From Actinomyces culturomici (GTDB lineage: Bacteria > Actinomycetota > Actinomycetes > Actinomycetales > Actinomycetaceae): a stretch of DNA of 36,007 nt. The DNA lies in NCBI RefSeq assembly GCF_900499005.1, contig NZ_LS991316.1, positions 550,056 to 586,062 on the forward strand. The letters run 5' to 3'. Each line of letters begins with the position of its first letter. The first letter of the stretch is position 1. This document shows positions 3,205 through 32,441 of this stretch, piece after piece. The translations under genes were made by a program, and so were the position numbers. The notes below the pieces were generated by a model, which did no database searches, was not told the origin of the DNA, and saw only the letters and a program-made list of their open reading frames with translations.

Positions 3205-4248
3205 ATGGCGAAGCGACCTGACGTCTCCGTCCCCGGAATCGTCGTCGTCGACAAGCCCGCCGGCCTCACGAGCCACGACGTCGTCGCGCGCGTCCGCCGA
3301 CTCGCCCGCACCCGCAAGGTCGGCCACGGCGGCACGCTCGACCCGATGGCGACCGGCGTCCTCGTCGTCGGCGTCGGCAAGGCGACGCGCCTCCTCACGT
3401 GGATCACCGGGCACGACAAGACCTATTGCGCGACCATCCGCTTCGGCGCGACGACCTCGACCGACGACGCCGAGGGAGAAATCGTCTCCGCCCCCGGCTG
3501 CCCCGCGCTCGACCCCGAGGCCCTCGAGACCGCGATGGCGGCCCTGCGCGGCGACATCCTCCAGGTCCCCTCGACCGTGTCGGCGAAGAAGATCGACGGG
3601 AAGCGCGCCTACGCGCTCGCCCGTGAGGGCGTCGAGGTCGAACTCGTGCCCGTGCCCGTGACGATCGCCCGCTTCGAGAGCGTCTCCGAACCCCGGGAGG
3701 CGATCCTGCCGACCGACGGGGGAGAGGTTCGCGTCGTCGACCTCGACGTCGAGGTCGACTGCTCGTCCGGCACGTACATCCGCGCGCTCGCCCGCGACCT
3801 CGGCGTGGCGCTCGGCGTCGGCGCCCACCTCACGCGCCTGCGCCGCACCCGCGTCGGAACCTTCACACTCGACGACGCCCATGCGCTCGCCGACCTCGAG
3901 GCCGAGGGCGAGGCGCGCGTCGCGCTGTCCCGCCCGACCGGGGCGCCCGCGGCCTCCGAATCAGACGACTCCGCCGCCCCGGCCTCGTCGATCGACGAAC
4001 CGGCGCCCGCCCCCGGGCTCATCGGCCTCGACGCCGTCGTCGCCGCGATGTTCCCGACCCTCGAGCTCGACGAGGACGAAGCCGCGCGCTTCCTCCACGG
4101 CAACCCGCCGAGGCGCGAGCCCGCCGAGATCGCCGCGCTCGCCGCCGGCTCCGCGACCCTCGGCGCCCTCGACCGGGCGGGGCACGCGCTCGGACTGCTC
4201 GACGCGTCCGGCCCCCGACTCACCACCGTCTGCGTCCTGAGGAGCTGA
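3205..4248 (+). CDS. truB: tRNA pseudouridine-55 synthase
   Basis: TruB converts U55 of the tRNA T-loop to pseudouridine. The start is ATG 3205, two bases after the rbfA stop. The catalytic motif [10 protein letters not shown] places the nucleophilic aspartate at D46, and the KPAGLTSHD motif lies at 17-25. Conserved [14 protein letters not shown] and a C-terminal PUA-like segment (about 275-347) follow. Between the catalytic part and the C-terminal segment is a Ser/Ala/Pro-rich linker at about residues 245-272. It contains SSIDE, encoded by a copy of the dispersed GCCCCGNCCTCGTCGATCG element at 3976-3998. At 347 residues it is slightly longer than most bacterial TruB, mainly through this linker. 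It is operonic with rbfA and ribF. Confidence 0.96.
3976..3998 (+). repeat. Dispersed CTCGTCGATCG element, copy in truB linker
   Basis: It reads GCCCCGGCCTCGTCGATCG followed by ACGA and includes the full 14-base palindrome TCGTCGATCGACGA. It lies inside the disordered linker of TruB and encodes ASSIDE. Other copies are listed separately. Confidence 0.7.
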
Positions 4249-4251
4249 CCG

Positions 4252-5241
4252 ATGAAGACCTGGACCTCCCTGGCCGACGTGCCCGGCGACGAGAAGTGCG
4301 TCGTGACGATCGGCAACTTCGACGGCATGCACAACGGGCATCGTCGCGTCGTCTCCTCCTGCGTCGAGCGCGCCCGCAAGCGCGGCGTCGACGCCGTCGC
4401 CATCACCTTCGACCCGCACCCCACGCAGGTCCACCGGCCCGAGGTCGGCCTCCAGCTCATTTCGCCCCTGCGCGACCGCCTCGATGCGATGGCCGCCTCC
4501 GGGCTCGACGCGACCCTCGTCGTCCACTACGACGCGAGCGTCTACCGGCTCGAGCCCGAGGAGTTCGTCGTCGAATTCCTCGTCGACCGGCTCGGCGCCA
4601 TCGAGGTCGTCGTCGGGGAGGACTTCCGCTTCGGTCGCCTCAACACCGGCACCGTCGACACCCTGCGCGAGCTCGGGCGCCGCTACGGCTTCGACGTCAC
4701 GATGGTCACCGACATCCAGGCCCCCGAGGGGCGGCGCTGGTCCTCCTCCTGGGTCCGCCAGCTCCTCGCCGACGGCGACGTCGCGGGCGCCGCGCGCGTC
4801 CTCGGGCACCTCCACCGGGTCCGCGGCACCGTCGAGCACGGCTTCAAGCGCGGGCGCGCCCTCGGATTCCCGACCGCGAACCTCCAGGGCGGCATCGAGG
4901 GCGTCGTCCCCGCCGACGGCGTCTACGCCGGCTGGGTCGTCCGCACCGTCCCCGGCACCGAGTCCGCCGAGTTCCTCCCCGCCGCGATCTCCGTCGGGAC
5001 GAACCCGCAGTTCGACGGGGTCGAGCGGACCGTCGAGGCGCACGTCCTCGGGCGCTCCGACCTCAACCTCTACGGGGAGAGGATCGCCATCACCTTCGTC
5101 TCGCGGATCCGCCCGATGAAAAGCTTCGACTCCCTCGACGAGCTCCTCACCGCGATGGACGACGACCTGCGGCGCACCGCCTACGTCCTCGGCATCGCCG
5201 TCGCCGGGCGCGTCGACCCCGACACCGTCACCGCGAACTGA
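4252..5241 (+). CDS. ribF: Bifunctional riboflavin kinase / FAD synthetase
   Basis: RibF phosphorylates riboflavin to FMN and adenylates FMN to FAD. The N-terminal adenylyltransferase domain shows GNFDGMHNGH at residues 21-30, the FAD-synthetase form of the HxGH nucleotide-binding motif. WSSSWVRQLLADG near 163-175 corresponds to the family SSTxIR motif. The C-terminal riboflavin kinase domain has the GFPTANL signature near 206 and ends with the usual RP(M)KSFDS segment. At 329 residues it is a normal length. ATG 4252 begins three bases after the truB stop, and GAGGAG at 4239-4244 serves as its ribosome binding site. This truB-ribF pairing is standard in actinobacteria. Confidence 0.96.
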   Translation: MKTWTSLADVPGDEKCVVTIGNFDGMHNGHRRVVSSCVERARKRGVDAVAITFDPHPTQVHRPEVGLQLISPLRDRLDAMAASGLDATLVVHYDASVYRLEPEEFVVEFLVDRLGAIEVVVGEDFRFGRLNTGTVDTLRELGRRYGFDVTMVTDIQAPEGRRWSSSWVRQLLADGDVAGAARVLGHLHRVRGTVEHGFKRGRALGFPTANLQGGIEGVVPADGVYAGWVVRTVPGTESAEFLPAAISVGTNPQFDGVERTVEAHVLGRSDLNLYGERIAITFVSRIRPMKSFDSLDELLTAMDDDLRRTAYVLGIAVAGRVDPDTVTAN

Positions 5242-5286
5242 GGCCCGTCCGGCGGCCGGCACCTCGCCTCCCTCCTCCGGCGCGCA

Positions 5287-30786: not shown

Positions 30787-30793
30787 GCCCCCA

Positions 30794-30799
30794 AGGGTA
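30794..30799 (-). promoter_or_regulatory. -10 box of a leaderless promoter for the methyltransferase gene
   Basis: On the minus strand TACCCT lies seven bases before GTG 30786. Confidence 0.5.
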
Positions 30800-30905
30800 G
30801 CGGGCGCCCGGGGAGCTTCTCCGCTCTCAGCGCAACGACCGGTGCGCCCGCGCCGCGACGAGTCGGGGCGTGGGAGACTGGGGGGACCCCGTGGAGAGGA
30901 ACTCG

Positions 30906-32441
30906 ATGGACCAGTCCGACGCCCCGTCCGCCCCGATCGACGACGCCGAGGAGCGCGCTCGCGACGTCGTCGCCCGCATCCTCGCGCGGCGAGGGACGGC
31001 GCTCGAGTCGACGGAGGGGCAGGACCATTCGACGGACGCGGGCGCCCTCGAGCGCGAGGCCCGCGCCGGCACGCGGCGCGTCCAGGGGCTCGCGAACGAC
31101 CGGGAGGAGATCTCCGAGGTCGAGTACCGCCAGGTCCGCCTCGAGCGCGTCGTCCTCGTCGGACTGCGGACGACCCAGACCGAGGAGGAGGTCGACACCT
31201 CTTTGCGCGAGCTTGCGGCGCTCGCGGAGACGGCCGGTTCGGAGGTCCTCGACGCGGTCGTCCAGAAGCGCGTGAAGCCCGATCCCGCGACCTACCTCGG
31301 CTCCGGCAAGGCGAAGGAGCTCGCCGACATCGTCCGGGCGGTCGGGGCCGACACGGTGATCGTCGACGAGGAGCTCGCGCCCTCGCAGCGCCGCGGACTC
31401 GAGGACGTCGTCGACGCGAAGGTCGTCGACCGAACGGCGCTCATCCTCGACATCTTCGCCCAGCACGCGAAGTCCCGCGAGGGCAAGGCGCAGGTCGAAC
31501 TCGCCCAGCTCGAGTACCTCCTCCCGAGGCTCCGCGGCTGGGGCCAATCGATGTCCCGCCAGGCGGGCGGCCGCGTCGCCGCGGGCGCCGGCATCGGCTC
31601 GAGGGGCCCGGGCGAGACGAAGATCGAGCTTGACCGTCGCCGGATCCGCACGCGCATGGCGAAGCTGCGCGAGGAGATCCGCAGGATGGAGCCAGCCCGC
31701 CGGACGCAGCGCCTCTCGCGCCGCCGCGGCGGCGTTCCCTCCGTCGCGATCGCCGGGTACACGAACGCCGGCAAGTCGACGCTCCTCAACCGGCTGACGG
31801 GCGCGGGCGTCCTCGTCGAGGACGCGCTCTTCGCGACCCTCGACCCGACGGTCCGGCGCGCCGAGACCTCGGACGGGCGCGCGTACACGCTCACCGACAC
31901 CGTCGGATTCGTCCGCAACCTCCCGACGCAGCTCGTCGAGGCGTTCCGCTCGACCCTCGAGGAGGTCGGCGAGGCGGACCTCCTCGTCCACGTCGTCGAC
32001 GCCGCCCACCCCGACCCGATCGGCCAGGTCGAGGCGGTCCGCGCGGTTCTCGCCGACATCGAGGGCGCCGCCGACATCCCCGAGATCATCGTCCTCAACA
32101 AGGCGGACCTCGCGAGTCCGGAGCGCCTCGCCCTCGTCCGCACGTACTTCCCCGACGCCGTCGCGGTTTCCGCGATGACGGGCTTCGGCATGGACGAGCT
32201 GCGCCATCGGATCGAGGATGCCCTGCCGCGCCCGCGCGTCCTCGTCGACGTCGTCGTCCCGTACTCGCGCGGCGACCTCGTCCACGCCGTCCACGAGGAC
32301 GGCGAGGTCGAGCGCGAGGAGTACGTCGCCGAGGGGACGCGGATCCGCGCCCGCGTCGACGAGCAGCTCGCCGCGCGCATCGCCGAGGTCGGCCTTCCGA
32401 TCGACGAGGACGGGGCGGGAGCCGGGAACGCCGATGAGTGA
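30906..32441 (+). CDS. hflX: Ribosome-associated GTPase HflX
   Basis: HflX is a GTPase that splits stalled or stressed 70S ribosomes. The HflX-specific N-terminal domain includes YLGSGKAKEL and ELAPSQRRGLE, then a helical segment with RGPGETKIELDRR. The G domain has GYTNAGKST at residues 284-292, DTVGFVRNLPTQLVEAF and NKAD. Length is 511 residues, longer than usual because of about 50 acidic N-terminal residues. ATG 30906 is preceded by GAGAGGA. The C-terminus PIDEDGAGAGNADE is encoded by a dispersed-element copy. The stop overlaps the helicase start by eight bases. Confidence 0.95.
   Translation: MDQSDAPSAPIDDAEERARDVVARILARRGTALESTEGQDHSTDAGALEREARAGTRRVQGLANDREEISEVEYRQVRLERVVLVGLRTTQTEEEVDTSLRELAALAETAGSEVLDAVVQKRVKPDPATYLGSGKAKELADIVRAVGADTVIVDEELAPSQRRGLEDVVDAKVVDRTALILDIFAQHAKSREGKAQVELAQLEYLLPRLRGWGQSMSRQAGGRVAAGAGIGSRGPGETKIELDRRRIRTRMAKLREEIRRMEPARRTQRLSRRRGGVPSVAIAGYTNAGKSTLLNRLTGAGVLVEDALFATLDPTVRRAETSDGRAYTLTDTVGFVRNLPTQLVEAFRSTLEEVGEADLLVHVVDAAHPDPIGQVEAVRAVLADIEGAADIPEIIVLNKADLASPERLALVRTYFPDAVAVSAMTGFGMDELRHRIEDALPRPRVLVDVVVPYSRGDLVHAVHEDGEVEREEYVAEGTRIRARVDEQLAARIAEVGLPIDEDGAGAGNADE
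32397..32419 (-). repeat. Dispersed CTCGTCGATCG element, copy at hflX 3' end
   Basis: The plus strand reads CCGATCGACGAGGACGGGG then CGGG. Its reverse complement is identical to the ftsK copy over 22 bases. It encodes PIDEDGAG in the last residues of HflX. Confidence 0.75.

Follow-up and report, generated by a model that had tools for sequence, protein, structure and literature searches.

A short DNA word with dialects in Schaalia that resembles the DNA uptake sequences of other bacteria

The stretch analysed here, called the window in what follows, comprises 36,007 bp (C17:550056-586062) of a 2.56-Mb genome of about 70% GC, placed in the Actinomycetaceae, beside Schaalia/Actinomyces. It carries a dispersed repeat with the core CCCCGNCCTCGT. 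This repeat is not an inserted element. It is a DNA word of 12-17 bp in which the inner core, CG-N-CCTCG, hardly varies, the flanks are graded and the surroundings are unrelated. We consider it likely to be a DNA uptake sequence of Schaalia, comparable with the DNA uptake sequence (DUS) of Neisseriaceae and the uptake signal sequence (USS) of Pasteurellaceae, and present in several dialects around CG-N-CCTCG. This reading is proposed because its copy number, its division into core and flanks, its dialects, its occurrence in both orientations and the competence genes of its hosts match the anatomy of uptake sequences.

In the window's own species, the consensus reads GCCCCG-N-CCTCGTCGAT. A scan of single mismatches found each wrong base at CG or CCTCG only 0-3 times, against 109 intact words; the remaining positions are softer, and the central N is unconstrained (A 19, C 40, G 33, T 17). 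In intergenic copies the 3' side additionally reads G/A-A-T-C, positions -9 and -8 are G/A, and a weak tract of pyrimidines spans -25 to -18. Since the surroundings past about -25 and +20 carry little information, the word is no long element.

With regard to abundance, the core is found 584 times in the own genome, both strands counted, against one occurrence of the reversed word, and the 19-mer GCCCCGNCCTCGTCGATCG with at most one mismatch is found 242 times (117 forward, 125 reverse), against none. Finer counts were made in a 436-kb sample of this genome, consisting of the window and 20 further stretches, with genes called by our own codon-score finder in place of a standard annotator. Single genomes are designated by G numbers, G000 being the window's own genome and G028 S. 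odontolytica. The 124 cores of the G000 sample fall into 32 sense, 32 antisense, 59 intergenic and one partial copy, so that 59 of the 124 lie in 14.6% of the DNA. Inside genes, 64 cores compare with a mean of 13.0 after synonymous shuffling (maximum 19 in 30 shuffles), and the corresponding figures are 36 versus 3.7 in G028 and 27 versus 1.5 in G014. Between genes, the 59 cores in 63.8 kb compare with 0.4 in a third-order Markov simulation, and the same model gives 0.05 for the 18 observed in G014 and 0 for the 12 in G028. The enrichment thus acts at the DNA level, beyond codon usage or chance. The genome-wide count and the codon-matched background, which an earlier note on this stretch had called for, therefore both speak for the repeat. 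When CGNCCTCG is required together with at least six of nine flank matches, 278 sites are obtained in the 436 kb (638 per Mb), and one on reversed DNA. The exact 19-mer is also present in three IMG/VR stretches, a count that covers IMG/VR as a whole and not Schaalia phages in particular.

In the G000 sample, 11 pairs of neighbouring sites lie at most 100 bp apart, compared with about 3.5 expected. Five of them are convergent, three divergent and three point the same way, two of the latter coming from one tandem. An apparent strand switch near C17:150 kb, seen among the matches listed, was rejected, as those matches lack the window's own exact minus-strand copies; forward and reverse totals are balanced.

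The dialects were sought by ranking k-mers in samples from 12 of the 35 genomes of the genus, words within 400 or 300 bp being counted once, and CRISPR-like repeats being masked in a second ranking. Words resembling CRISPR arrays topped the k-mer counts in the G028 and G007 samples (roughly 73-81 copies of each word in the former and 96-103 in the latter). Most of the 12 genomes give the same inner core with different flanks, namely GCC[CA]CGGCCTCGTC in S. odontolytica, [CA]CGGCCTCG in G031, CCCCGCCCTCGT in G014, whose GC content is only 55%, GTCGCCCTCGTCAAT in G003, CGTCCTCGTCCC in G005, CCGCCCTCGTC in G013 and G015, and GGCCTCGGCAA in G024. Expectation-maximisation (EM) seeded with the dialect words held them in G014, G003, G005, G024 and G030; it did so only below 60% GC and elsewhere slid to codon periodicity, the dialects of high-GC genomes being based on k-mers and whole-genome counts.

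Whole-genome counts, forward and reverse, were made in all 35 genomes of the genus and confirm that dialects exist, as they sort the genomes into groups from the counts alone, with no tree involved. The core CCCCGNCCTCGT reaches 1344 copies in G014, is present at least 100 times in 18 of the 35 genomes and 45-98 times in eight, and is scarce (2-26) in nine (G032, G003, G030, G001, G024, G026, G018, G016 and G002). CCACGGCCTCGT is found 122-255 times in the nine genomes of the odontolytica group (G010, G011, G012, G019, G022, G023, G025, G028 and G034), 45 times in G031, 30-39 times in G016, G018, G024 and G026, and at most 15 times in the others. TCGYCCTCGTCAA has 147 copies in G005, 41 in G004, 39 in G003 and at most 25 in any other genome, and GGCCTCGGCAAT has 33-57 in G016, G018, G024, G026 and G030 and at most 15 elsewhere. 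Outside the genus, CCCCGNCCTCGT remains at or below 63 per genome in 165 genomes drawn from the larger family; several of these exceed the reversed control, which may reflect weak relatives of the word or codon effects beyond the genus. The top k-mers of 100-kb samples from two genomes of other genera (G197 and G035) include no matching word, and in G213, again from another genus, CCTCGTCCAG occurs 15 times versus 2.7.

The comEC region of nine genomes, G031 and eight from the odontolytica group, was used to follow how copies change between relatives, with [CA]CGGCCTCG as the site; the aligned cases are ordered pairs sharing sites and are not independent. At 75-85, 85-90 and 90-97% identity, respectively, 154 of 286, 211 of 307 and 222 of 274 sites are intact, compared with 345 of 1446, 544 of 1496 and 828 of 1471 permuted words, corresponding to kept fractions of 0.54, 0.69 and 0.81 versus 0.24, 0.36 and 0.56. 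The 824 alignable site pairs comprise 548 kept, 264 changed by substitution only and 12 gapped, and the 2490 alignable pairs of random 9-mers comprise 913, 1511 and 66 (208 and 390 further pairs, respectively, are not alignable). Among changed pairs the gapped share is equal, 12 of 276 for sites and 66 of 1577 for random 9-mers. A gap within 15 bp is found at 40 of the 264 substituted sites versus 81 of the 1511 random 9-mers. The sites thus sit in more indel-prone surroundings, yet the inserted unit is not the word itself. On these alignments, the word alters by point mutation and, once formed, is favoured.

Several other explanations have to be weighed against an uptake sequence. The earlier note had likened the repeat to the palindromic elements that invade Rickettsia proteins, and a mobile or palindromic element dispersed by insertion into spacers and genes (such as a repetitive extragenic palindrome, a miniature inverted-repeat transposable element or a Rickettsia palindromic element) would account for copies in spacers and linkers alike, for the gaps near changed sites, and for the copy in dapF, situated in a loop for which the three relatives aligning there have fewer residues. 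However, the unit measures only 12-17 bp, its outer flank is not conserved, its decay is position-specific rather than uniform, gaps in the core are no commoner than in random 9-mers, and the copy in the M16 peptidase gene encodes PRPRR, ungapped in all five relatives aligning there (13 loci searched). With the word altering by point mutation, and 264 of 276 changed pairs differing by substitution only, an inserted element is extremely unlikely, and the insertion pattern expected by the earlier note does not appear. The idea that codon usage and high GC generate the word as a side effect has practically no chance of being correct: CCTCG-rich words are indeed common in high-GC coding DNA, but synonymous shuffles and intergenic Markov models yield far fewer copies, which refutes this explanation for the 12-mer, and the same core is found at the 55% GC of G014. 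A word linked to methylation or restriction and kept by repair or protection, in the manner of the highly iterated palindrome HIP1, could be suggested by the CGATCG contained in the 3' half of the own-species word. Such a role is very improbable given that the dialects GGCCTCGGCAA and CGTCCTCGTCCC lack CGATCG, and that the word is long and asymmetric with a core that is not palindromic.

Two further explanations remain. Sites for a chromosome-organising or regulatory protein, either nucleoid-associated or a gene-end factor, needing hundreds of copies, would agree with the near-invariant core and its unread N, which suggest protein contacts, and with the intergenic enrichment. We nevertheless hold this to be unlikely, as about half of the copies are inside genes on either strand, the sampled stretches have no obvious domain or strand pattern, and a single core ranging from 2 to 1344 copies per genome, together with the change of dialect, is unexpected for conserved nucleoid-protein sites. 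A polarity signal for recombination or translocation, comparable with Chi or with the FtsK-orienting polar sequences (KOPS), would likewise consist of a short word in very many copies. In stretches from five single-contig genomes, however, no replication-strand bias was seen, 79 copies being leading and 75 lagging by record half when the record start is taken as the origin, and 80 and 74 when split by the sign of the GC skew. Because these counts are balanced, a Chi- or KOPS-like role is disfavoured, and the strand bias relative to the origin that the earlier note had wished to see checked was not seen in these stretches; inverted pairs also occur, and a word of 12-17 bp whose flanks are degenerate is longer than would be expected of Chi. 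We see only a very slim chance for this role. The alternative offered by the earlier note, in which the motif serves protein binding or DNA uptake, fits well, and uptake fits best.

A number of observations weigh against an uptake sequence, or at least do not help it. Tight hairpin pairs are few (four of 14-27 bp among the 124 sites), 29 of the 32 antisense coding copies in G000 share one frame, and some intergenic copies have common flanks, for instance three in a 54-bp tandem; the excess of gaps near substituted sites belongs here as well. The reversed-word control is not codon-matched, and bare CGNCCTCG at 70% GC lies near its permuted control (2523 versus 2306), so that at this GC content information comes only from the longer word. 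Dialect words are weak in G007 (TCGCCCTCGT, 35 versus 11.5) and in G030, where the core is C-N-G-CCTCG (CCGCCTCGGC, 11 versus 2.0), and k-mers give no clear word in the 44 kb sampled from G032. No report of Schaalia transformation was found in open-access titles or the beginnings of abstracts.

The behaviour of foreign DNA belongs to the same balance, and the evidence for depletion there, weak and mixed, is suggestive only. A conjugative-element stretch (L216, G031:C1:1450001-1470000), with a relaxase and a TraG-type coupling protein, contains no site versus about 3.3 expected (P about 0.04), and 20 kb of the own genome, by eye a surface-polysaccharide cluster, contain no strict copy. A 20-kb stretch of G028 with apparently core genes (L144) also has no site, and the accessory DNA of the comEC region, with four sites in 4.8 kb, is too little to judge. 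When intergenic gaps below 20 or above 3000 bp are left out, intergenic density is greater next to genes with typical codon use in G000, G014 and G028, three of the four species compared (0.61 to 1.82, 0.87 to 3.26 and 0.07 to 1.02 sites per kb between the lowest and highest codon quartiles); G005 has no such intergenic trend. Inside G000 genes the trend is opposite, from 0.29 per kb at atypical to 0.05 at typical codon use. A coding trend is not clear in G014 and G028, and the fall is not seen in G005 either. Coding copies in G000 are scarcer with stronger codon bias, a pattern that would suit avoidance in genes with high expression.

The competence machinery of the genus is compatible with DNA uptake. 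ComEC was detected in 33 and DprA in 34 of the 35 genomes, the misses being assemblies that are 70% and 88% complete. In the own genome, comEA (SLBB and HHH_3 domains) adjoins comEC, and two tad/Flp-type loci are present (Table 1), two of the genome's four T2SSE matches having been inspected. The likeness to Flp and TadF was judged by eye against the N-termini of Micrococcus luteus proteins, and on this basis the 79-residue DUF4244 protein of the second locus may be an Flp-like pilin. The best pilus-type ATPase match in the genus reaches about E 1e-49, and some other families are below 1e-125; from the strength of this match, a PilB-driven pilus is unlikely in the genus. M. luteus needs comEC and two tad clusters for transformation, and tad combined with comEA/comEC is described as frequent in Actinobacteria (PMC4322843). 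Because ComEC and tad-type genes are thus frequent, and T2SSE matches occur in 58 of 58 genomes (57 above the cut-off), the machinery does not discriminate, which is a further point against the uptake reading.

If the repeat is an uptake sequence, a Tad-type pilus system is its probable reader. A sequence-specific receptor belonging to the competence machinery would bind extracellular double-stranded DNA at the word; the likeliest candidate is a minor pilin from either Tad/Flp-type system, and ComEA is a less likely one. The pilus would pull the DNA in, ComEA and ComEC would pass it through, and DprA and RecA would recombine it. DNA bearing the word would be taken up and recombined more often than other DNA, such that copies would multiply through this bias (molecular drive), coming to rest between genes, in linkers and at codon-tolerant sites. 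We infer the binding of the word by a receptor, the bias in uptake and the identity of the receptor. Somewhat less firmly than the uptake reading as such, we also favour the view that Schaalia possesses an uptake system outside Neisseriaceae and Pasteurellaceae, independent of DUS and USS, in which a Tad/Flp pilus would provide the sequence-specific receptor and the dialects would act as species barriers against the exchange of genes.

The window itself contains 14 matches to the 19-mer with at most three mismatches, versus 1.31 expected (maximum 5 in 100 shuffles), and the principal copies are given in Table 1.

Table 1. Copies of the word in the window (window positions) and the two tad loci of the own genome (contig positions)
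Feature	Position	Strand	Context
Exact 19-mer, flank score 9/9	3976..3994	+	truB, between TruB_C_2 and TruB_C; encodes ..ASSIDE..
Core CCCCGGCCTCGT	5288..5299	+	Intergenic, 46 bp past ribF; head-to-head with the 5328 copy
Copy with 2 mismatches	5328..5346	-	Intergenic, ribF-rpsO
Copy with 1 mismatch	8673..8691	+	Intergenic, after pnp
Exact copy	12933..12951	+	M16 peptidase gene; encodes APRPRRS
Exact copy	14433..14451	-	GNAT gene, N-terminus or about 30 bp upstream (start uncertain)
Exact copy	19992..20010	+	ftsK linker, between 4TM and alpha domains
Copy with 2 mismatches	27312..27330	-	Intergenic, directly past the miaB stop codon
Copy with 2 mismatches	29804..29822	-	In dapF
Inverted pair, first arm	30120..30131	+	Between convergent dapF and methyltransferase gene
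Inverted pair, second arm	30134..30145	-	Hairpin, terminator-like (z -3.9)
Exact copy	32398..32416	-	hflX C-terminal tail, past the HflX_C domain
tad locus 1	C17:1477-1489 kb		T2SSE ATPase, two T2SSF proteins, TadE, TadF-like protein (by eye)
tad locus 2	C18:160-180 kb		T2SSE ATPase, T2SSF protein, 79-residue DUF4244 protein, two weak TadE/G-like matches

All eight copies listed by the earlier note are present and the repeat is real; four of the starts were right and four deviated by 1-3 bases, the correct ones being 5328, 19992, 27312 and 32398, and the list lacked the dapF copy, the copy at 5288-5299 and the inverted pair. The palindrome into which the word was said to extend often, TCGTCGATCGACGA, is complete at only two places (3985 and 20001) and is not the repeated unit. 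The agreements described between the ftsK and hflX copies (22 bases) and between the M16 and GNAT copies (19 bases) exist and, with mismatches allowed, lengthen to 28 nt at 96% and 29 nt at 93%, respectively. Judged by Pfam domain limits, the idea that coding copies fall only in flexible places is correct for TruB, FtsK and the HflX tail, the TruB_C and HflX_C matches scoring under their curated cut-offs. The idea fails for M16, where the copy is inside the M16_C domain, and the coding status of the GNAT copy, about 30 bp upstream of our predicted start, is uncertain. The 30120/30134 pair folds into the hairpin given in Table 1, and the 5288/5328 pair folds no better than shuffles (z 0.13).

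By Pfam matches, from which we assigned the names, the window comprises infB, rbfA, truB, ribF, rpsO, pnp, a low-GC islet, the M16 peptidase gene and dapB, followed by the GNAT gene, dapA, rnj, ftsK, pgsA, recA, recX, cinA, miaB and miaA, and finally dapF, hflX, a dinG-type helicase gene and ldh. The closest named relatives of its FtsK are those of A. mediterranea, Actinomyces sp. B33 and S. odontolytica. The islet (about 0.58 GC, 8.8-12.1 kb) encodes a response regulator of LuxR type along with two proteins that match nothing in Pfam, and the stretch from 8691 to 12933, which spans it, has no copy of the word. Other repeats were noticed in passing. A 127-nt direct repeat has identical copies at 1-127, at the window start, and 5357-5483, in the ribF/rpsO spacer. 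A second, unrelated intergenic family (CCGAGAGCATCACCTT.../CGAAAGCATCAC) is found at 8569-8646, 15156-15233 and 27452-27491, and its word GTGATGCTCTCG was counted 28 times in the 436-kb sample, in which CGCACACAGTTT (16) and GATCGCACACTC (13) are also over-represented. Separately, a record titled Xylanimonas cellulosilytica 352_XCEL (L039) shares 95% identity with S. odontolytica over 22.8 kb, and its title is probably wrong.

To our knowledge, genome-wide uptake words are established in two families only, Neisseriaceae and Pasteurellaceae, and we know of no earlier self tag in this branch of bacteria or in Gram-positives. No earlier account of such a sequence in Actinomycetota was found in the open-access papers searched, subscription papers and preprints being outside the scope of the search. 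If the uptake reading is correct, Schaalia would provide a third case, unrelated to the other two, from a lineage with a single membrane and Tad systems, showing self tags to evolve repeatedly. It would also imply a sequence-reading component in Tad-type competence pili and offer an independent replicate for the question of whether words of this kind spread by drive or by selection. Schaalia include human oral commensals and host Saccharibacteria epibionts, and in that case the word could serve as a practical tag for DNA delivery into them.

Among known systems, Rickettsia palindromic elements, which are inserted units of about 100 bp or more, resemble the present word in having copies within protein-coding genes at tolerant places, but differ from a word of 12-17 bp that alters by substitution. 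The DUS of Neisseriaceae, read by ComP, is enriched between genes and occurs in inverted pairs; here the intergenic enrichment is present, and the close pairs are mixed in orientation. The two sequences are unrelated, the host here is a high-GC Gram-positive, and a PilB-driven pilus would be unlikely in it. Both consist of very many copies of a short word with dialects in related species around a common inner core, CTG there and CG-N-CCTCG here, although strict density is lower here, with 584 copies per 2.56 Mb compared with 2,245 to 5,918 for several DUS dialects (PMC3630211). The USS of Pasteurellaceae is likewise unrelated in sequence, and unlike those bacteria the present host has no outer membrane for DNA to cross. 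In Haemophilus influenzae, the USS combines an indispensable inner core (GCGG) with weaker flanks (AT tracts) (PMC7811141), and the word described here similarly joins a near-invariant core to weaker flanks, with purines at -9/-8 and a tract at -25 to -18 that is C/T-rich, upstream and weak. A parallel in machinery is the Flp/Tad-dependent transformation of M. luteus, described in a paper whose main text does not contain the words 'uptake sequence' (PMC4322843): judged from genes alone, the host of the word has the same outfit of comEA-comEC, dprA, two tad loci and a putative Flp-like pilin.

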